A stretch of DNA of 64,000 nucleotides, from assembly GCF_901933205.1 (NCBI RefSeq), contig NC_044573.1:58344493-58408492 (forward strand). Direction: 5' to 3'. The DNA is from Camarhynchus parvulus. Taxonomy: Eukaryota > Chordata > Aves > Passeriformes > Thraupidae. Position numbers and translations under genes: made by a program. The notes below the pieces were generated by a model. The model did not search any database and was not told the DNA's origin. It saw nothing but the letters and a program-made list of their open reading frames with translations. Positions 21,701 to 64,000 of this stretch are shown here, in pieces. Position 1 is the first letter of the stretch. Each line of letters begins with the position of its first letter.

Positions 21701-22693
21701 TGTAACATTTACCCTCATACCATGACCTGGGAAGGAAAAACATTTTAAAATAACTGCCAACTCATCTTCTTGAGGCTGTTTTCTAGATTCTTGCACTAAT
21801 GGTAGACACATTTATTGTTTAATTGATGGTATAAACTCCCACTTTATGTATGCCTAGACAGCTTTCTGAGAAACAAGAATGGAATATAAACCAGATTAGA
21901 AAACTGGATTTTCTAGCCTACAGCTAATGAATTATGTGAATTTAGTTAAAACTGATTTCAGACATAATGTGACAGAAATTTGGCTGCATCTTCTAGGAGA
22001 AAGGTTGAAAGTATTTCACTGAGGAAGAAGTCGAGAGTAAATATTTTATTGTGTAACCAAATTTAGGACAAATATCATTTTCAGCATAGAATTTAACAGA
22101 AACAACATTCCAGTCAAATTAACTAGCTTTACTCAGTACACCAAAGGATAAAGAGATCAGAACTGCTCCCTCTGATTCAAGTTATATTTACTCAACTGAA
22201 AGCAAAAGCAGACACTACCAGATCCATACATAAAGTGTGACTGTTCCTGCCCTTGGTCATCTTAAAACTACACATCCAACCAACACCCAAATGGAAATCC
22301 TTTGTCATCTGTCAACATTGATATCAACAAAATCTCCATTCTTTCTATCTGTCGCTAATGAGCTTTACCATCAACATGCACATGCTTACAACGTCAAACC
22401 CTTCTCATCCCTCACTCTAAACTGCACTTGCCAAAAAGGAAAATCAAAATACTCACTTCAGCTATATTTGCTTGCAGAAATGGAGTGACAGAATGCTCAT
22501 AGACAAAATTATACCTGATCACTTATCACTCTTAGAAAGAAATCTTCATCTACTTGGTGAAAATATTGCTTCATTTTTCTCAACCCCTTCTCTAAAAAGC
22601 AATCAGTTAATTTTCCAGAAGGCAAAACCCCGCAGGAATGCTCCCGCAGCTCCCTCCCCGCGGCGGCGGCGGCAGCCAGCGCCGCGCACTTAC

Positions 22694-22742
22694 TGATCTT
22701 CTCCTCCCCTCTGGAGAAGGGAAAGCAGCAGAGCTGGCCCAT
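22694..22742 (-). CDS. AKAP7: AKAP7 alternative first exon (short alpha/beta isoform)
   Basis: The minus strand opens with ATG in a good Kozak context (G at -3 and +4). It encodes MGQLCCFPFSRGEEKI plus one base, and stops at a perfect donor gtaagtgc. MGQLCC is the lipid anchor of AKAP15/18 alpha: Gly2 is myristoylated, and Cys5 and Cys6 are palmitoylated. This targets PKA to the plasma membrane beside L-type calcium channels and other substrates. The mammalian exon reads almost the same. It lies 22.2 kb downstream of the last long-isoform exon seen, inside its own CpG island, as expected for an internal alternative promoter. The downstream common exons should lie left of position 1. The longer open frame running past the donor is intronic read-through. 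Confidence 0.93.
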
Positions 22743-22938
22743 GGCACTGGCCGCCTCAGCCTCTCCCTCGTCCTCTCTGCTTGCACCTTATGCAAAACCT
22801 GCAAGTCGGGCGGCGGTCCGTGCAGAAACTGCTTAACTGCTTATTCCGCCCTGGAAGCGAGCGGGAGACGGGGACCGAGCGGCGGCCCCGCCCCGCCCCG
22901 CCCCCGGCACGGCACCGCCAGCCCCCGCCAGCCCCCGC

Positions 22939-23107
22939 CCAGCACCAGCACCAGCACCAGCACCAGCCCCAGCCCCAGCCCCAGCCCCAGCACCAGCACC
23001 AGCCCCAGCCCCAGCCCCAGCCCCAGCCCCAGCCCCAGCCCCAGCCCCAGCCCAAATCCAAGCCCCAGGCCCAGCCCAAATCCCAGCCCCAGCCTCAGCC
23101 CCAGCCC
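22939..23107. repeat. Hexamer array, (CAGCAC)n and (CAGCCC)n
   Basis: About 170 bp of near-perfect 6-bp units: first CAGCAC, then CAGCCC, a second short CAGCAC run, then a long CAGCCC run that decays at the right end (ccaaatcc, ccaggc). On the minus strand this reads GGGGCT repeated, with at least ten runs of four G. Open frames through it in four frames (His-Gln, Pro-Gln, Gly-Leu, Trp-Gly dipeptides) are by-products of the repeat, not genes. Confidence 0.95.
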
Positions 23108-44864: not shown

Positions 44865-45140
<276 letters not shown>

Positions 45141-46600: not shown

Positions 46601-47639
46601 ACATCTAGTGGTGGATGCTTTTCATTTCAAGAAATGGAAATTTCAGAGTCTAAATCTCCGTGGAAGTCTACATTTACTCCATCCTCACAGTAATTACTTA
46701 ATCTTTTTTTATTCTATGGCTACACTAGTCCTTATGTAATAAGGTTATTCTGACATTAAATCATCATTCCTTGCTTTTTGGCTGACAGTTCTAGGAATAC
46801 AGTTAAACATCAATTAGTAATAAGAAAGACCTTTTCAGCCAGGAAAACACTTGTCAAAATGTGAAGCCTTGAGTTCTTCTGGAATGAAATGAAGAAAAGA
46901 TAAAAATCACAACTTCATGCTCCAATAAAAAAATAACATTTACAAGAGATTGGGATGTTACTTGTCAAAGACAGGTTGCTAAGGTGTGAATCAAATGTTG
47001 AATGCTCAGGAATTGAGTCATGCTTGTGATGCACTACTGAAAGGTATTTGGAAAAGCAGCCATGGGAAAACTATGATATTTTTAGTAACTGGAACAATTT
47101 CTGGAGTGCTGCTTGCAGTGAGATGTGAAAGGATGAAGCAATGCAGGCGCATGGGAAAGTCATGGCTCATTTCTTAACTTGAAAGGGTCTGGAGCAGTAG
47201 AGATGCGAGAGAAAAGTTGTTACCACATGGGAATAGTACAGATGCTAACAGTAAGATAAGTTGTAATGGGGGAGGGTGAGAAATAAGAGTACTCGAGAGG
47301 ACACTTTGAAGCATTTGGTGTTGGAACGGAAGGAGGAAGACATCTGCATCTGGGATGATGCCTGTAAAGGACACAGCTGAGTATCGCGGGCCTGAAGAGG
47401 CATGGCACGAGGAGATCTTGCAGGACCGCCAGAGCACCAGGATAATGCCTTTGGCATCCCTGCAATGTCTGGTTTTCCAGCCCGTGTCTCTGAGAAGGTG
47501 CAGCCAGCTATCCCAGCAGTTGAACCCCATGCATTCCCCGCAGCCACTGCCACAGTCAGCCCTGAGACCAGGGGCAGGAAGGCTCCAGTGGTGACAGCGC
47601 AGGTAGCAGAGAGGCAAGCAGCTCCGGGCTCCGTGTGCC

Positions 47640-47930
47640 AGAGCCCACAAGCCAGCAGAGCACTGGGTGCTCCTTCGGGGGGGCCCGCCGGCAGCCCGAG
47701 AGTCGCTCCCGGCGGCGCGGCCGCCCCGCCGGCCGGGCCAAGGCCGGGACAGGGCCGCTGTGGGCGCGGCCTGGCTGCAGAGGCGGGCCCGGGCGCTTGA
47801 CGGGCCCTCCCGACGGAGCGCCGAGAGAGGAAGGGAAAGGGAACAGCACAACGGCTTTGGGCTGCAGGGAGGTGCAGCAGCTGAGACGAGGTGCACGTCC
47901 GTGGTGAGGAGGGTGAGTAGCGAGCAGAGA
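47640..47930 (+). promoter_or_regulatory. CpG island, candidate promoter of the MSH5 retrogene
   Basis: A compact, CpG-dense block, very unlike the AT-rich intron around it, lies about 530-820 bp upstream of the MSH5 ATG. It contains runs such as ggcggcgcggccgccccgcc and several GC boxes, with no TATA box. A MYB-type site, CAACGG, is at 47849-47854. MYB-type sites matter because A-MYB drives many meiotic genes. No AKAP7 exon is recognisable here, so the island most likely serves the plus-strand MSH5 copy, though antisense or bidirectional transcription is possible. Donor-like sequences follow: gg|gtgagt with GT at 47913, and cag|gtgcgt with GT at 48104. The bases before the MSH5 ATG (ttgccaacag) resemble a 3' splice site. 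A noncoding first exon plus a short intron is therefore plausible. The promoter assignment is inferred from position and composition. Confidence 0.6.
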
Positions 47931-48447
47931 AGTGGGAGAGGATTGGAAGTGAGGTGCTGACAGGGATTGGTATGTCCCATCCCTTATGTACTTCTATAGA
48001 AACTGGTGCTGCCTGATGCTGCAGCATAAATATGGGGCTGCGACCCTGAAATGATGGCCAGGCTGTGGGGCTGCACTGCTGAGAGAAGCCACGGTCAACG
48101 CAGGTGCGTGTCACGAACCTCTGAGGGAGGATGATTTTGTGCATGGATATACGTGTCTGTCCATGTTATGTATTTATGGGTACTTGGGTCTACATAGACT
48201 TTAAAAAAAAATAAAGGATACAAAGAAAAACTGTAAAACTATTGATGGTATTTAGCTCTGTTACTTCTTCCTTGGAAGCCTTGGAAGTGGCTGTAGTTAC
48301 TGGCTGTGTCACTTGAACATGTCTAGTTAATTCCTAGTAGCATCTTAGATTCTCCAGGGTTGGAAGAGTGACTATCTGTTAACTTCCTGTTGTCAATTAA
48401 AGTTACTTCTCAGGACCTTTTGGATGAGTTGTGAATAAAAATACCTC

Positions 48448-48457
48448 TTGCCAACAG
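48448..48457 (+). other. Splice-acceptor-like sequence directly before the MSH5 ATG
   Basis: The ten bases ttgccaacag end in AG exactly at the initiator ATG, with a modest pyrimidine tract in front (cctcttgcc). A second candidate, ttacttctcag, ends near 48412. Either could join a 5'UTR exon from the CpG island to the coding exon. Transcript data would be needed to confirm this. Confidence 0.3.
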
Positions 48458-50893
48458 ATGAGTGCCACATCAGCTACGAGCTGTGTCTTGCCACCAGCAC
48501 TTGGGCCTGAGCAAGAGGAGCAAGAGAGCTCAGAGACACATATGTCTGTTCTGTGGTATGCAGGGCAGCTGGCAATTACTTACTATGATACAGAAGATTG
48601 CTCAGTCTACTTCATGCCTGACATACCTGATAATGAAGACCTCAAGCTACTGCAAAAAGTGATTGAGGAACTTAACCCTCAATGCATAGTGACCAGTGCA
48701 AAACAGGACCAGAATATTGCTAAATTCCTGACCAACCTAACAGCTACTGCTGGTGATAAAGACATAGGAAAACCAGAAATTGTCCTGTTTCCCAACATAG
48801 ATTTTGGTCTAGAAGTCAGCAAGCAACGGATCCTGTCTAGGCAATTTCCATTTATTCCATCTCATATGACTGCCACAGAGAAAATTCTCTATTTGTCCTC
48901 AATCATCCCTTTTGAGAGTCCACTCATGATACGAGCCTTAGGGGGGCTCCTCAAGTTTCTAGACAGAAGAAGGGTTGGAGTTGAACTCGAAGACAGCAGT
49001 ATAGCAGTTCCTATTTTGGCCTTTAAAAAATTTGTGCTGTCAGATACTGTGAATATGGACCAAGACACTTACTGTGTCCTTCAGATATTTAAAAGTGATA
49101 TCCATCCTTCTGTGTACAAGTTATCCAGTGGACTAAAAGAAGGATTTAGCTTATTTGGAATTTTAAACCGTTGCAGATGCAAATGGGGAGAAAAACTGCT
49201 GAGGTTGTGGCTCACACGACCTACCCGGAACCTGACAGAGCTGAACAAACGGCTGGATGTTATCAACTTCTTCCTGCTAGCTCAGAACCATGAAACAGTC
49301 CTCACTCTTCAAAACTGCCTCAAGAATATTAAAAATGTGCCTCTTATTTTAAAGAGAATGACTCTTTCCAACACAAAAGTTAGTGACTGGCAAGCACTGT
49401 ATAAGACAGCATACAATGCAGCGTGCCTTAGAGACACGTGTCGTTCTCTGCCCAACACTATTGAACTTTTTCAGACTATTTCACGTGTCTTCACTGATGA
49501 CCTGCACTACATTGCTAACCTGATCAGCAAAGTGGTAGACTTTGAAGGCAGCCTCTCTGAGAACCGCTTCACTGTTAGACCCAATGTAGATGCCACGATT
49601 GATGAGAAGAAACGAAAGCTGATGGGACTGTCAGACTTCCTTACAGAAGTGGCACGAAAAGAACTGGAGACTTTGGACAATCAGATTCCCTCCTGTGCTG
49701 TCATCTATATTCCTTTGATTGGGTTCCTTCTCTCCATTCCACGCCTCCCAAATATGGTGGATAAGACTGACTTCGAAATTGAAGGCTTGGACTTCATGTT
49801 CTTGTCAGAGGACAAACTACACTACAGAAGTGCCCGGACCAAGGAGCTAGACAGCCTGCTGGGTGACTTGCACTGTGAGATCAGAGACCAGGAAACACTC
49901 ATCATGCACCAGCTGCAGACAAGGATCCTGGAGAAGTCTGAAGTACTCAACAGTGTGATTGAGTACACTGCACACCTGGATGTGCTGCTAGCCTTGGCAG
50001 TGACAGCCCGGGAGAACGGCTATTGCCGACCCCACTTTACTCACCGCCACGGCTTCCACATCAAGGACGGGAGACATCCACTCATGGAACTATGTGCAAA
50101 GACTTTTGTGGCCAATCCTGTGGACAGCGGTGAGGCTACTAGACGAATAAAGATCATCACAGGGCCCAACTCCTCTGGAAAGAGTGTTTACTTAAAGCAG
50201 GTAGGTCTTATAGTGTACATGGCTCTCATAGGCAGTTACGTCCCTGCAGCAGAGGCAGAGATTGGAGTAATTGATGGGATTTACACAAGAATCCACAGTA
50301 GGGAATCAGTTTCTGTAGGGCTCTCCACGTTCATGATTGATCTTAACCAGGTTGCCAAGGCTGTAAACAATGCCACAGAGAGGTCACTGGTACTTATTGA
50401 TGAGTTTGGTAAAGGCACCAACACATTGGATGGCCTGTCCCTTCTGGCTGCTGTCCTGAGATACTGGATCAGACAAGGAACACAGTGTCCACAGGTCTTT
50501 GTCTCCACTAATTTTCACAGTTTAATGCAGCTAGAACTCCTGCCTGACACACCTCTTCTGGAGTACCTGACCATGGAGACCCATCAGGATGGAGAGGAGT
50601 TGATATTTTTCTACCAGATCAAACAGGGCATGTCCACCATTAGTCATGCTGCCAATATTGCTGCATTAGCAGGAATGCCAGCCAAAATTATTGAAAGAGG
50701 TGTGGAAGTATCAGAACTGATACGCAACGGAAAACCTATCAAACGTCTTGATCATCCTTCAAAATGTGATAGGATGGAAAAATGCAAGTCTGTTGTGGAA
50801 AAGTTTCTTTGCCTAGACCTTGACGATCCCCAGGTGGACTTGGAAGAGTTCATGTCTAAAGAGGTGTTGCCTTCTGCAGCCTCAGTCCTGTAG
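48458..50893 (+). CDS. MSH5: Intronless MutS homologue 5 (MSH5) retrogene, complete
   Basis: One uninterrupted frame encodes 811 residues. MSH5 pairs with MSH4 to form a sliding clamp that stabilises meiotic recombination intermediates and promotes crossovers. It lacks the N-terminal mismatch-binding domain of MSH2/3/6, and so does this protein. Visible parts: a variable acidic N-terminus (about 1-28); connector and core/clamp domains (about 30-540), including [19 protein letters not shown] and [16 protein letters not shown]; then the ATPase. Walker A is GPNSSGKS at 569-576 and Walker B is LVLIDE at 644-649, followed by FGKGTNT. The motif STNF at 683-686 has Asn where most MutS proteins have the switch His, as expected for MSH5. 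The C-terminus [10 protein letters not shown] matches the family end. Mammalian MSH5 is about 830 residues, and the deficit is in the variable N-terminus. The start is the ATG at 48458. An in-frame TGA lies at 48425 and the codon at 48431 is GTG, so the open frame is longer than the protein. Kozak context is weak (C at -3). The vertebrate gene has many exons, so this single-exon copy is a retrocopy, nested antisense in an AKAP7 intron. No disabling lesion is seen. Confidence 0.95.
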
Positions 50894-51312
50894 CCAGTGT
50901 ATGTTTAAATACATAGACTGCGTCATACCTACCATGGAGAGTCTGGGACTTTAAAGAATGATCACTATGACATGACACCTCACAGGACATTTAGCTTTTA
51001 ACAAACTGTCTGTACTTATATCCTTCCTTCTTCTTCTTCTTGCTTAAACCAAGTACTTACATATCCCTGCAACATGGTGCATCATATGAGTGTATGAAGA
51101 GGAAGAATTTTAAGAACCTCTTACAGCTGTTGGGTCACTCAGTTTGCATTTTCTGTCCCTGTTACTGAACCTCAGATAAAAAAAATATGCTGCAGAAAAA
51201 TCACAACACATTTCTACTGGTCTTAGAAGACTATTAAAGGAACATGTTTATTGTTTCATATTGTGCCAAAGTGATGGTTTAAGCCATTTTAGGATCACCA
51301 TAAAAGATTCCA

Positions 51313-51318
51313 AATAAA
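51313..51318 (+). terminator. Candidate MSH5 polyadenylation signal
   Basis: A canonical AATAAA lies 420 bp after the MSH5 stop codon, preceded by the variant ATTAAA at 51233-51238. An A-rich stretch near 51178-51186 could be a worn remnant of the poly(A) tail of the original insertion, but it is too short to be sure. The 3' end actually used cannot be told from the sequence. Confidence 0.35.
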
Positions 51319-52798
51319 TATGTGGCTCAGACTCTTGTGCCAACAATTAATAGTTGTCCCAATACAAACCACTGATATAGAGGCTGGCATAAGTGGCAAT
51401 GCAGAGGGATTTAGTGGCTTTGTGGCTTTTCTTATACCAGCTTTTATTTCCAAATGGCAGAGATCCCATGGGTTAGTTATAAAAAGAATGCTGGTGGTCA
51501 GATTCAGTGGGGACTGATAAATAGCAGTACCTTAGTTTTACTGAGAACTGTTCTTTTCTCTAAGGTTCTGTATGATACAGTTGTATCATGCATATTATGT
51601 GTCTGTGGGTATAAAGGCAAAATTACAAACCTAGGAATTGAAACAAGAACTTCACATATTCTATTCTATTTTCAATTATTAACATTTGAGGATTAGTATC
51701 ACAAAGGGAGGATTCCCTTTCACTTCTCTTGTCATGTAAAGGATCTTTACTGAACACAGTATTTTATGTATGCATATGCAAGAAAAATTCATTAACAAAT
51801 TAATGATGCAAGAGCCATATCTAAACACTATCAAAGCAATAACCTTTCCTGCAGCCAGGCAAGTGCCTGAGATTCCTCATGTAAATAAGACAGAGGAGAC
51901 ATTAGATAGCTTATTGTTTGCCAAAACTTGCTCTAACCACTTACATTATGGCAAATAAAAGATACACTACATCTTTCATCTATATGTCATTTCAAGAAGC
52001 CAAAAATATTAATGTCACATAAACTGAGAGAAAATTTACATTTTAAAAAAATTAAATCCCTTGATAATTATCAGTATTGAACATGTTATCTGGTTATCTG
52101 GCTGAAGATAGCAAAAAGATGAATATCAGCGTACATCAAAAAGATCTGAAATTTGAGACACTGCTTTGGGTTTGTTTCAGTGTGGAATTTCCTCCTTGAT
52201 GATAAAGGAAACTATTACCAAATAAGTACCTTATGCTATTTCTGTATGAAACTGGAAAGTGACAGAAGTTTAACATACTTTACATTAAAAAAATACAATA
52301 ACAACTTACTGAATTGTGCATTTAATGCTATTTCCAGTGCAATCACAATAATACTGTCTGCATAATATCTGGTATCATTATGATGTTACCATTGAAGTGA
52401 ATGGCAACAGTGAATCAGGCCTTGAACAATACTCAGAAGTGTTGCAAATACAACTATTTTTCCAATAATATATTCTCTTTTACTGACTATACATTGAGCA
52501 TTGTAAAGATACACCATACAAAGGAATATAATATAGAAAAGATTCATGATTTATAATTTCAGCATTTTTTGTTGTCAACCACTGTCTAGGCTAGGGATAT
52601 ACTCTGCACTAATTAAGCAGATGCCATCAGAGCAATTTAGCTGTCAGTCATCTTCTACCTATGAAATTCATTTCACAGCATTTGCAGTTCTGGCAGTACT
52701 GGGTATCAAAGGGCCTTCAAACATTATAGAGCATTTATGAAGTGCCTCACAACACACCCTGAAATAAATAGGAATCTGGACAAATGGAAAACACAGGG

Positions 52799-53521
52799 TG
52801 TTGCGGTGTGACCACTTTTCTGTTCTTAGTTATGTTCTGTGTAAGTTTATTATGCAAGTTGTATTTTAATGTTCTTGTTATATTCAGTTAGTATGTTCGG
52901 TTTGCCCCTGTTCAGTTATTAAAATGGTTCTGCCTAGGGCTCCCTTCCCGCCTTTCCCCTCACAGTTAACTGTCAATCCTTTGCCCCCTCCCTAGTTGTC
53001 TAGGCAACTTCTGCCACTCCCCATGTCGATCATTTGTTCCCTCCTTCGTTACTACAGTTTCTCTGTAACCCCTCCTATGTTTCCCTAGCAACTGCCATGT
53101 CCGTCACTCTCTGCCCACACCCTTTCCCTAGAACCTTCCACTCAGGGCAAGGAGTGATTGGACCAGAAATTGTTTCCCCTCCCCAACTAGTCCCCCATTC
53201 GTTGTTCTGTTCTGCCAGTCATTGTTTTCTGTACGTTTATTTGCCCGAGGACGAGTTGTTCCTCCCCTCGGGAACCCTTTATAATCTCTGTTCACCCTGC
53301 CCCTCAGGGCAGTTGCCTGCAGCCTTTCTCCCTTTCCAATAAAATCCCTTCCTACTGCGGACAACTGTCTCGCTTCTGGATCTTCCTTACGCGCTCGCTG
53401 GAGTCTGTTCCTGCTCATTGGCCAAGGGTGAAGCCTCTCTGCCCCTGCCGCAGTCAGGTCGCCCTAGGTAGCAGCACGCCAGAGCCTGTCTCCCACTTGG
53501 AGCCGCTGCTCCGTGGCAACA
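52799..53521 (+). mobile_element. Solo LTR-like element of a second endogenous retrovirus family
   Basis: A 723-bp block with LTR anatomy: inverted termini TGTTGC / GCAACA, a TATA-like tttataa at 53278-53284, AATAAA at 53338-53343, and a CpG-bearing U5-like tail. It is pyrimidine-rich and much higher in GC than its flanks. No target-site duplication is evident at these edges, so the right boundary is provisional (53521, or a little further, to about 53640). It lies 1.9 kb downstream of MSH5 on the same strand. No viral genes are present. Confidence 0.65.
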
Positions 53522-55207
53522 CTGCTACCACGCCAGGCTGCTAACATGTGTTAGAGCTAGCCAGAGCTCAAGGATCTGCACGCCAGCAACAGGGCTTATG
53601 ACTGACTGGTGGCAACTTAGGAGGTGAGTGAGGGAAGCAGGAACAGAAACATTATCTTCAAATACAAAACTCCAGTTGCTTCTTTTATTGTGCTTCATTA
53701 GGTGCTTTGCATAGAAGATAACGCTACTAACCCAGGATTCTTCTCATTCAAATAATTCTGGAAATGGCTGAACATGAGCAAGTAAATTATATCCTTTTGT
53801 CTCCTCCAACAAGGACACCTAGGAGCACACTATACCTCCTGTTTTTGGGGAAGTGTTCAGTGGCACATCTAATCTGAGAAATGTCCGACTATGCATGAAG
53901 AACAAGTTGGTCCCACTTCTGAGTAGGTAAATAAGTCCTTTAATTTGAGAAGCTGAAGGGGATACAGTAAACCGCATAGTTCTTTCCTAATCCACTTTAT
54001 TTCACACTTCCATCCTTTATTAATATCTGTTTCCAAGTTTTTAGATTTACCATTGTTAGCTTAATGATGTGCCTTCAAAGTGAAAACCTGATTTCATGAG
54101 ATCTTTACTAGTTCTGAATTCTCAAACTCTTTGCTTTGTAAATACAATTTTTAACTCTGGAAAAGTTAAAATCTCTACAGAATATATAAATTTCAAAACT
54201 GCTACAGTTATATTAAGGTTTAAAAAACAGATTTTTTTCCCCCCAAAATAAAACTTTGGTGGAATTTGGATGTCATTGAGAGGAGGGTGACTTAACAGAA
54301 TATTGTTGCAAATAAGGAAGCTTACATTTAAAAAATAAATTAATATAGTTACACAGCGCTACAGCTGAGAACTATACTCAACCACTTCAGTACTATTTGC
54401 TCTTTTATAAGCTTGCTCATGTAACCCTCATCCACTTCCCTTTTCTTCCTTTTCATATTGTTCTAAAATCTGAAAATACAATTAGACATCGTATTTAAAT
54501 GTACTGACAAATAATTATTCCTTTTTGTGATACATATTTTTATTTACTGTTTTCTGTAAATGCATTAAACTGTCTAACTAAATGCAGGAATACAATGAAA
54601 GAAAAAAATATAGTAAAGACTGATGCTTATGCCTCACACTGAATTGACAGAGAAAAATGTACAGATTTTTAATACGTAGTATCCTTCTATGCAGTAGATC
54701 ATATGCATTATCCAGCATTATGGAGGGCTCAGGAAGATGATTTGGAATGACATTGACCTGGTTCTGTCAGCAGCCGTGAATATCAGAACACAGAAAGGAT
54801 GTATCCTGGCTAATATGTCATGGAAGGTAGATAAATGTAAATGAAACAACCAACCAGCCAAAAAACAGAAAAAATACAGAATAGCAAAAATCCCACCCAG
54901 ATTGTCTCAGATCTTTTAACCAGTTAAATCATTGAACAGCTGATATTCTAGAAGATCTGTGGATTTTTAAAATTAGCATTTTAAAAACTCAACTGTCATT
55001 TCAAGCAAAAGCTTCTGTGAGTTTAAAAATTTCATATCTATCATATACCACCTGCATCCTATGGCTAAGTCTTTGTTTCTATTTTAGAACAAGTACACAT
55101 ACCCTCAAATTTTCTTGATGTATCTCAAATCTCGCTACCTTCTTTCTACTTACTTGAAAACACTACTTAATTAAAACGTGCACCTTCAGCATTTTTAGAG
55201 ATATTTC

Positions 55208-55231
55208 TAATTAAACTTTAAAGTTTAATTA
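55208..55231. repeat. 24-bp perfect AT-rich palindrome
   Basis: The 24 bases centred on aaactttaaagttt read the same on both strands. Composition is almost pure A/T, so chance is a real explanation. Confidence 0.8.
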
Positions 55232-56057
55232 TTAACTTCAACCCACTATTAAGGAAAAATCAACTTAAAAGATTAGTTTTATGTACTTTAATTCTTATGT
55301 AAAATATTTTTTCTGAAAATTATTTTCCAGTCAATGTTAAAGAATCACATAAAACATTCTATACAATGTCAGTAAAAAAATGTAGAGACATATACCTTGT
55401 GTTAAATAATAACAGGTACTACAGTTAAATTAATATGAAATTTTAAAAAAGATACACTAGTATTGCTTCTATGTATTTTAATGACAGTTATATCCTATTT
55501 TCATGTATTTGTGTATTTTGTAAAAAAAACCCCATAATAAATGGGCAAGAAATAACTGCCTGCCAGAGAGAATATAGAAGATATATTTAATTATATACAT
55601 GTATTAATACAGTTTTTCCTCATTACTCTGAAATTCACCAAAGCACATTCAATGGGGAACTAACTGCCTACTATGCATATCCAAACAGAAATTCTACTGT
55701 TTATTTGCTCATTTTCTCCTATACAGTAACAAAACTCAGCAAACACACCGCCTGCATACAATCTACCCCCTGATGGGAGTTCTGCAACTCTGAAGAAGTA
55801 CTTTTATCCTTTGGTCTTGCCTAATTTCCCAAGAGAAAACAGACCATGATATTACTGCACCAAGAATATCAAGAGTGATAAATTAAGTACAGGACTGCTT
55901 CTACAGTAGAGACATTAATTATTTCTTTAAAAGCATAAAAGTCTTACCTCTTCAGCTGGTTACAAAGTAGCAAATATGATGCTACAGCATTAACAACAGT
56001 GTCCATCTCCAAATTAAAAATTACTATGTTGCTACTTTCTAGATTGCTTCTGAACTA

Positions 56058-62660
<6,603 letters not shown>

Positions 62661-62821
62661 CTGCTATTTCCTTAAGTAGTGCTGTATGATCATTTTCTGC
62701 CAAATTCACAAATCCAACTTGATTTCTGAAGTGATCAATTCCTTGAAAAGACAAATTCACTCTTTTTCCTTTCAGGAGATCATCTACAAAAACCTTGCTG
62801 TCTGAAAGAGCACCAACTGCT
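62661..62821 (-). CDS. AKAP7: AKAP7 internal exon (long isoform, 2H domain middle part)
   Basis: On the minus strand an acceptor ctttcctctcaacag opens a 161-nt exon that ends ...GAAATAGCAG before the donor gtacaa. It enters with one base of a split codon, carries 53 codons and leaves one base. The peptide includes KVFVDDLLKGKRVNLSFQGI and NQVGFVNLAENDH, which match the segment of AKAP7 (AKAP18 gamma/delta) between the two HxT motifs of the 2H-phosphoesterase-like core. This core binds nucleotides such as AMP, and in mouse AKAP7 it can cleave 2',5'-oligoadenylates. The upstream exon with the first HxT motif is not in the window and should lie beyond position 64000. An alternative acceptor a few bases into the exon cannot be excluded. 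Confidence 0.88.
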
Positions 62822-64000
62822 CTGTTGAGAGGAAAGAAAAGAGCAATGTCAAATATATTTCTGCTGTTAATATTGCTATTAATAATTATATCAATAAATG
62901 TAACAAAGATTTTTTAGTACCAATTTATTATCTACTGCAGTACTTTTGCACTAATTTCTATCAATACAATTGTTGTCATTATTATTACCACCTTTTTATA
63001 AAGGTAAAGTGGTTCATACACTGTGCAGTAAAACCAAACAAATAATAAAGGCAGACTTAGCAGTGGGTGCAATTCCTCAAAAGAGTTTATCTCAGTCCTC
63101 AAGGTATCCAGATACTAACATGACAATGTCCCTATTACTTTGTGAATTCCATTTAGAAAAGATGATTACTTAGGAGCATTTTGTTTTCCATTCTTAAATT
63201 AATTTTTTTCCTGTCCTGGTATGTCAATTGAACTAAGAGCCTTCTTCAGTCAAAGTTACAAAAGTGTTAGTTAAATTATAAACAGATGTGACATTACATA
63301 TATAATGATAAAATTATATGGAAATTACAATTAAGCTCATGGAGAACTGTTGTTAAAAGAAGTAGAATCTCAATTTACATTTACTTTCTGTAAGAGCTAA
63401 GAGACATGCACACTATAACTGTAACAACAGGGTAGAAACCTTTTAATAATCATCTAAATTAGCCACATCAAGTGCATGTACAATTACATGAAATGATTGT
63501 TTTGACCTGTACTAAAAGTGATTTAAATTCTAAACAAAAACCATATAAACATTTTGGTGTTTTCTAAAAGATTTCTCACATCTCACAGTTTTAATTCTAT
63601 TTAATTAACCTGAATGTAATCTTTTCCCCAAATTGATGCAGACTTTATAAACGCTAGATGGCAGTAATAGGTTAAAAATGCTCAAAAGAGGTATGTTTAC
63701 TTTTTCTGTCCTAGCTGGATGAAAGCAATCACCGATTTCTAGGGCAGGTTAAATTATTTCATTGAAGCCTGTACAATTCCAAGAATCTCTACACATTCTC
63801 ATTGTGTTTTACAAGGTAGACTTGATGTGAACTGTGCATAACTGGAACCTAGATAAGTTAAGAAACACATGAAGGTTGATAACGACAGAATATCCTTCAC
63901 TGATAGAGTCCTCTTGTAGTCTTTTCAGAGGGCTTTAATCTATAAGCTAGAAGTACTTTAGCTCCTTTATAACCATTTTAAACACCAACGTTCCTTGTTC
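62822..64000 (-). other. AKAP7 intron, incomplete in the window
   Basis: AT-rich sequence upstream of the 161-nt exon. The preceding AKAP7 exon, expected to carry the first HxT motif, was not seen. No repeat family was recognised. Confidence 0.75.

Follow-up and report, generated by a model that had tools for sequence, protein, structure and literature searches.

Intronless MSH5 in an AKAP7 intron of Camarhynchus parvulus, probably an orphan retrogene and the sole functional MSH5 of birds

Results

MSH5 is present as a single open frame

The meiotic crossover gene MSH5 was found in the genome of the finch Camarhynchus parvulus as one frame without introns, placed antisense within an intron of AKAP7, and it is the only copy found in the assembly. 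This gene is very probably an orphan retrogene and the sole functional MSH5 of birds. As to its origin, we lean towards a single retroposition before the split of turtles and archosaurs, with loss of the original gene. The stretch of DNA analysed, hereafter the window, is 64 kb long, and positions are given in it unless a contig is named.

48458..50893, plus strand: MSH5 coding sequence, 811 aa in one uninterrupted frame (ORF, Pfam and protein relatives)
50162..50185, plus strand: Walker A, GPNSSGKS, residues 569-576 (alignment position)
50387..50422, plus strand: Walker B / MutS signature, residues 644-655 (alignment position)

The frame runs from an ATG at 48458 to a TAG ending at 50893, with 0 stops and 0 frameshifts in 811 codons, and both the Walker A and the Walker B-region motif were located, which confirms the intact intronless MSH5 proposed by a sequence-only reading of the window. 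Pfam detected MutS_III (E 2e-27) and MutS_V (E 5e-52) above cut-off, while MutS_IV scored 21.9, just below its cut-off of 22, and MutS domain I gave no Pfam match at E up to 0.001. Lack of this mismatch-recognition domain is typical of the MSH5 family, and the frame has the clamp/lever and ATPase regions expected of a member. In a search of 5.8 billion proteins, the top full-length relatives bearing a specific name were MSH5. Best matches and the protein tree likewise group the frame with MSH5 and not with MSH2, MSH3, MSH4 or MSH6, and MSH2, MSH3 and MSH4 occur as separate loci. Its G+C content is 45%, compared to 36% in the adjacent intron stretch 51501-56000. An AlphaFold model built from 39 sequences had a mean pLDDT of 59 and was too poor for use. 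Seven other long ORFs chosen from the 64-kb window showed no Pfam match.

The Geospiza parvula database entry agrees with the finch protein at every residue apart from 27 that it omits. These residues (50627-50707, codons 724-750) are absent from 7 of 121 aligned sequences, six from birds, including Geospiza parvula, and one from Anolis, all found in UniRef only. At this position the frame in the finch DNA stays open; a GC-AG pair of matching length is present and a GT-AG pair is not. Most probably the omission is an annotation artefact common to these entries; an unusual splice that keeps the frame is less likely. We had considered missing internal segments in Anolis carolinensis models as skipped exons, and thus as signs of lizard introns, and dropped this idea because the same omission occurs in the six bird models. 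In another database protein, Chelonoidis MSH5 (P0041), 12 residues extend beyond the usual C-terminus, which might reflect loss of the stop.

MSH5 lies between AKAP7 exons on the opposite strand

The host gene was traced with a human AKAP7 sequence, whose matches in the window are as follows.

62656..62829, minus strand: AKAP7 exon (limits are those of the match)
56079..56216, minus strand: AKAP7 exon preceding the host intron in AKAP7 orientation; its match starts slightly outside the exon
44970..45119, minus strand: AKAP7 exon following the host intron in AKAP7 orientation
22689..22742, minus strand: AKAP7 alpha-type first exon (MGQLCCFPFSR...), within one CpG island

The sequence derived from the finch exons matched Geospiza fortis AKAP7 (P0122) at 100% identity and 98% coverage. 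A whole-genome search placed AKAP7 exons in order on the minus strand of contig C3 (113.18 Mb), with more exons past both ends of the window, and MSH5 on the plus strand, flanked by the exons that correspond to human residues about 192-234 and 236-285. Minus-strand AKAP7 exons therefore flank plus-strand MSH5 on both sides, and the antisense nesting claimed earlier holds. Elsewhere in the genome, two weak AKAP7-like matches (C2:101991661-101991855 and C2:102001484-102001609, at 45% and 52% identity, one of them interrupted by a stop) perhaps represent a diverged AKAP7 relative. Within the window, a simple repeat at 22750-23100, by the CpG island of the AKAP7 alpha exon, would translate as proline/alanine from one strand and as tryptophan/glycine from its complement.

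That the copy might be a contaminant had been named as a reason to abandon the reading. An artefact of assembly or contamination is scarcely credible: we found no support for it, and it is contradicted by the embedding of MSH5 in AKAP7 on a 113-Mb contig, by the same linkage in four other birds described below, and by the position of the finch protein beside Geospiza in the protein tree.

No other MSH5 found in the finch assembly

We searched the finch genome (1.05 Gb, 1343 contigs) with the finch MSH5 protein and obtained matches at 6 places, one full-length at 100% identity (C3:58392950-58395382) and five short and weak. The five were tried as possible exons of a parental MSH5 and ruled out, as they fitted best to probes for MSH3 (L002, L004), MSH2 (L003, L005) and MSH4 (L006), these probes being ATPase fragments. 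The MSH4 probe fitted L006 at 96% and 83%, so that MSH4 exons are present in the finch genome; in a PDB search with L006, Msh3 ranked first and no MSH4 stood among its 36 matches. Since the search reached exons of paralogues at 32-62% identity, exons of a parental MSH5, if assembled, should have appeared. The multi-exon MSH5 that the sequence-only reading had suggested looking for in this species was thus not found in this assembly, which may lack the avian counterpart of MHC class III. The gene is a single exon in the window, its relatives having many. A scan of viral contigs found no relatives.

The relatives search yielded 963 proteins out of 7993 scored candidates, and the best 120 of the 963, reaching down to 65% identity, were examined. 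Among these 120 were 34 named bird sequences (32 species, including ostrich, rhea and kiwi) at 87-97% identity and 7 further sequences from assembled reads at 89-95%; ostrich and finch MSH5 are 90% identical. None of the 120 was a second, more distant MSH5 of any bird. A multi-exon parental MSH5 could in principle survive on a microchromosome missed by assemblies, with the retrogene sharing its work, as MHC-bearing microchromosomes of birds are hard to assemble. This arrangement appears improbable given the absence of a second distant bird sequence in that sample. Four sequences at 78-79% identity fall among squamates in the tree, and a second tree, with 16 of 42 bird sequences, contains one orthologous line and one antbird-specific pair, with the finch beside Geospiza. 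The proposal that the copy had taken over the role of its parent is thus borne out as far as tested, by its being the sole MSH5 found in the finch genome and by the bird matches listed.

Two species contributed more than one sequence in a way that deserves mention. Merops nubicus had two MSH5 entries among the best 120, both on one scaffold. In the same sample Pithys albifrons (P0021, P0035) was the only bird with two distinct MSH5 proteins on different contigs; the second lies on another contig (127451547), differs by 47 residues from the AKAP7-linked one, and has a longer branch. The pair are mutual closest relatives, and the second protein represents a further, lineage-specific copy.

Linkage to AKAP7 and ARG1 in other species

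In order to find the position of MSH5 in other species, a shared contig was recognised by an identical contig size in bp in both search tables, using the best 120 of 963 proteins for MSH5, of 530 for AKAP7 and of 4996 for ARG1. Eight birds occurred in both the MSH5 and AKAP7 lists, and Catharus ustulatus and Amazona collaria came without a contig, leaving 6. Both genes shared one contig in 4 of the 6: Aptenodytes (14481189), Phaenicophaeus (127598818), Excalfactoria (105162541) and Pithys (121308221). The contigs differed in Falco biarmicus (92426045 for MSH5 vs 91472507 for AKAP7), whose MSH5 cluster spans three contigs, and in Alca torda (125510139 vs 248826). The search for this copy in AKAP7 of other birds, also suggested at the outset, was thus answered by a common contig in penguin, malkoha, quail and antbird.

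Because the AKAP7 list was full of birds, we used ARG1, the neighbour of AKAP7, to reach reptiles. In each of the three turtles named in both tables, MSH5 lies on the same contig as ARG1: Emydura (22796886), Carettochelys (212173194) and Chelonoidis (217722593). The 22.8-Mb contig of Emydura gives the strongest turtle linkage, the contigs above 200 Mb being weak indicators, with ARG1 serving as a proxy for AKAP7. In Alligator mississippiensis MSH5 is on a contig of 22531214 bp and ARG1 on one of 486595084 bp, perhaps from two assemblies. The contigs also differ in five amphibians (Rhinatrema, Ambystoma, Lissotriton, Pelodytes and Spea) and in the echidna Tachyglossus; those of Lissotriton are both near 2.14 Gb and may be pieces of a split chromosome. 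Judged by these contigs and by the AKAP7 intron of the finch, MSH5 sits at a new genomic location. Placental mammals gave a match in Ictidomys and Cynocephalus and a mismatch in Meriones, and such a match says little because human chromosome 6 bears both genes, on different arms. No lizard with a contig was among the best 120 of 4996 ARG1 proteins.

The very recent insertion that the earlier reading had offered as an alternative is rejected, since MSH5 is linked to AKAP7 in four other birds and, via ARG1, probably in turtles. The copy is evidently old and common to other birds, so far as these sequence comparisons indicate. The intronless state was read directly in the finch window and, elsewhere, from small contigs in birds such as Tauraco, where MSH5 probably has little or no intron because 775 of its residues fit on a contig of 4406 bp.

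The protein tree and constraint

A protein tree of 30 sequences picked from 121 joined birds with Alligator (100/97), then with turtles (97/92) and then with squamates, which is the accepted order of these large groups. Since the MSH5 tree follows the species tree, it fits one orthologous line. Root-to-tip distances from the amniote ancestor were 0.21-0.28 in birds, 0.21-0.29 in squamates, 0.13-0.16 in turtles, 0.16 in Alligator and 0.44-0.58 in mammals. The bird line is not clearly relaxed because its distances equal those of squamates and are below those of mammals, yet they are above those of turtles and Alligator.

Conservation of at least 98% was seen at 292 columns in 75 sequences outside birds, turtles and crocodiles; 289 of these columns are retained in the window and 277-291 in the other 41 bird sequences. 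A simulated copy without constraint acquired about 3 stops at 0.05 substitutions per site, and at 0.2 substitutions per site free drift left 67% identity and about 11 stops, with 0 of 300 runs free of stops; the identity between ostrich and finch MSH5 is, by comparison, 90%. As about 3 stops are expected already at 0.05 substitutions per site, it is not by chance that the frame is open across birds, and the conserved columns point to purifying selection at the protein level. An intact, intronless frame would also be seen in a recent neutral retrocopy that by chance is still open, an explanation of negligible probability here: it is contradicted by the AKAP7 linkage in four other birds, and the protein constraint, the single copy and the flanks described next also speak against it.

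Flanking sequences

CpG islands were called over 400 bp at G+C >=0.6 and CpG observed/expected >=0.6. The 64-kb window has two, one at the AKAP7 alpha first exon and the other ending some 300 bp upstream of the start codon of MSH5.

47421..48140, no strand: CpG island preceding the MSH5 ATG, a possible promoter and 5′ UTR exon (CpG criteria)
47911..47918, plus strand: donor-like GGGTGAGT within the CpG island (sequence inspection)
51313..51318, plus strand: AATAAA, about 420 bp past the stop, a candidate polyadenylation signal (motif)

Acceptor-like sequences (CTCAG ending at 48413 and CCAACAG ending at 48457) stand just before the MSH5 ATG, and MSH5 might thus have a spliced 5′ exon. In four bird models found in UniRef only, the N-terminus is extended by residues whose sequence varies between models, which could reflect an upstream exon or annotation noise. 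The CpG island and the AATAAA are suggestive of MSH5 transcription.

On the 3′ side the longest A run is A8 at 51178, in agreement with the earlier remark that a clear poly(A) tail is missing, and no target-site duplication was found around MSH5, where there are only 10-bp repeats. Such a tract and duplication mark young copies and are not required of old ones; an A8 without a duplication is what a very old copy would be expected to show.

Discussion

Origin of the copy

Retroposition is the likely mechanism because the introns are missing and the gene is at a new site inside another gene. Reverse transcription of an MSH5 mRNA would have given a copy that integrated antisense into an intron of AKAP7, most likely in the common stem of turtles, crocodiles and birds. 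The copy would then have taken on a germline role, probably using the adjacent upstream CpG island as its promoter, with a germline transcript presumably starting in the island, and the intron-containing original would have been lost. MSH4-MSH5 pairing and crossover promotion are the function of this family, and the full MSH5 protein is accordingly predicted to pair with MSH4 and hold crossover intermediates. On balance we favour, by a little, the conclusion that crossing over at meiosis in every extant turtle, crocodilian and bird relies on an orphan retrogene in an AKAP7 intron, put there by one retroposition before turtles and archosaurs separated, the MHC class III original having been lost.

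MSH5 might instead have first been relocated near ARG1/AKAP7 as DNA, with introns, in early archelosaurs, and later, in the bird stem, been retroposed into AKAP7 or stripped of its introns, so that turtles would have the relocated gene with introns. The turtle evidence, consisting of contig sharing, and the reading of the intronless state from the window and from contig room in birds such as Tauraco leave space for such a course. We regard it as unlikely, since it needs two rare events instead of one and since an antisense gene in an intron, with all introns gone, is what retroposition produces. Retroposition before the turtle-archosaur split thus remains our preferred account, and an origin before birds fits better than an origin within birds. 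What remains of the probability for the origin is spread over smaller variants.

Comparison with known systems

In the titles and abstract openings of the open-access literature, we found no description of MSH5 as a retrogene, as intronless, in AKAP7, or in birds or chicken. The word MSH5 is absent from the excerpted texts of PMC9679377, PMC3136929, PMC2048973 and PMC3155783, and in that of PMC6390344 it occurs in the reference list only; among the papers listed on MHC class III in reptiles, nothing on MSH5 appeared. Retrogene replacement as such is already known, with many cases in green algae according to the excerpted text of PMC4972966, and what is notable here is which gene is concerned, how widely the copy is shared and how old it probably is. 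If true, the lineage-wide replacement of MSH5 would be a very old and consequential takeover. It would also illustrate a route out of the MHC for an essential gene, in a lineage where CR1 elements are not believed to make copies of ordinary mRNA (PMC2048973, in excerpt) and where retrocopies are few, 78 having been counted in chicken (PMC3136929, in excerpt). This escape, again if true, may be one precondition for the shrunken MHC of birds.

Mammalian MSH5 has many exons and is indispensable for crossovers in mammals. According to the excerpted text of PMC1309616, it lies next to CLIC1 in MHC class III. The finch gene resembles it in family, full length, domains and motifs, with 65-69% identity to mammals among the matches listed, and differs in being one frame in an AKAP7 intron, in contrast to a many-exon gene in MHC class III. 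Germline retrogenes with meiotic roles are described in excerpted sources for Morc2b and Pdha2; like the finch gene these are retrocopies, and unlike it they are described there beside their parents Morc2a and Pdha1, whereas no MSH5 parent was found in the finch.

The closest parallel is with orphan retrogenes, 25 of which are reported in human, together with a tetrapod-wide case in the Iroquois-Sowah block (PMC8793726, in excerpt), a precedent older than the MSH5 copy. These share with the finch gene an intronless copy, an absent parent and strong constraint; the finch case differs in that the gene is essential for meiotic crossovers and that its copy seems to be fixed in birds, perhaps even in all archelosaurs.
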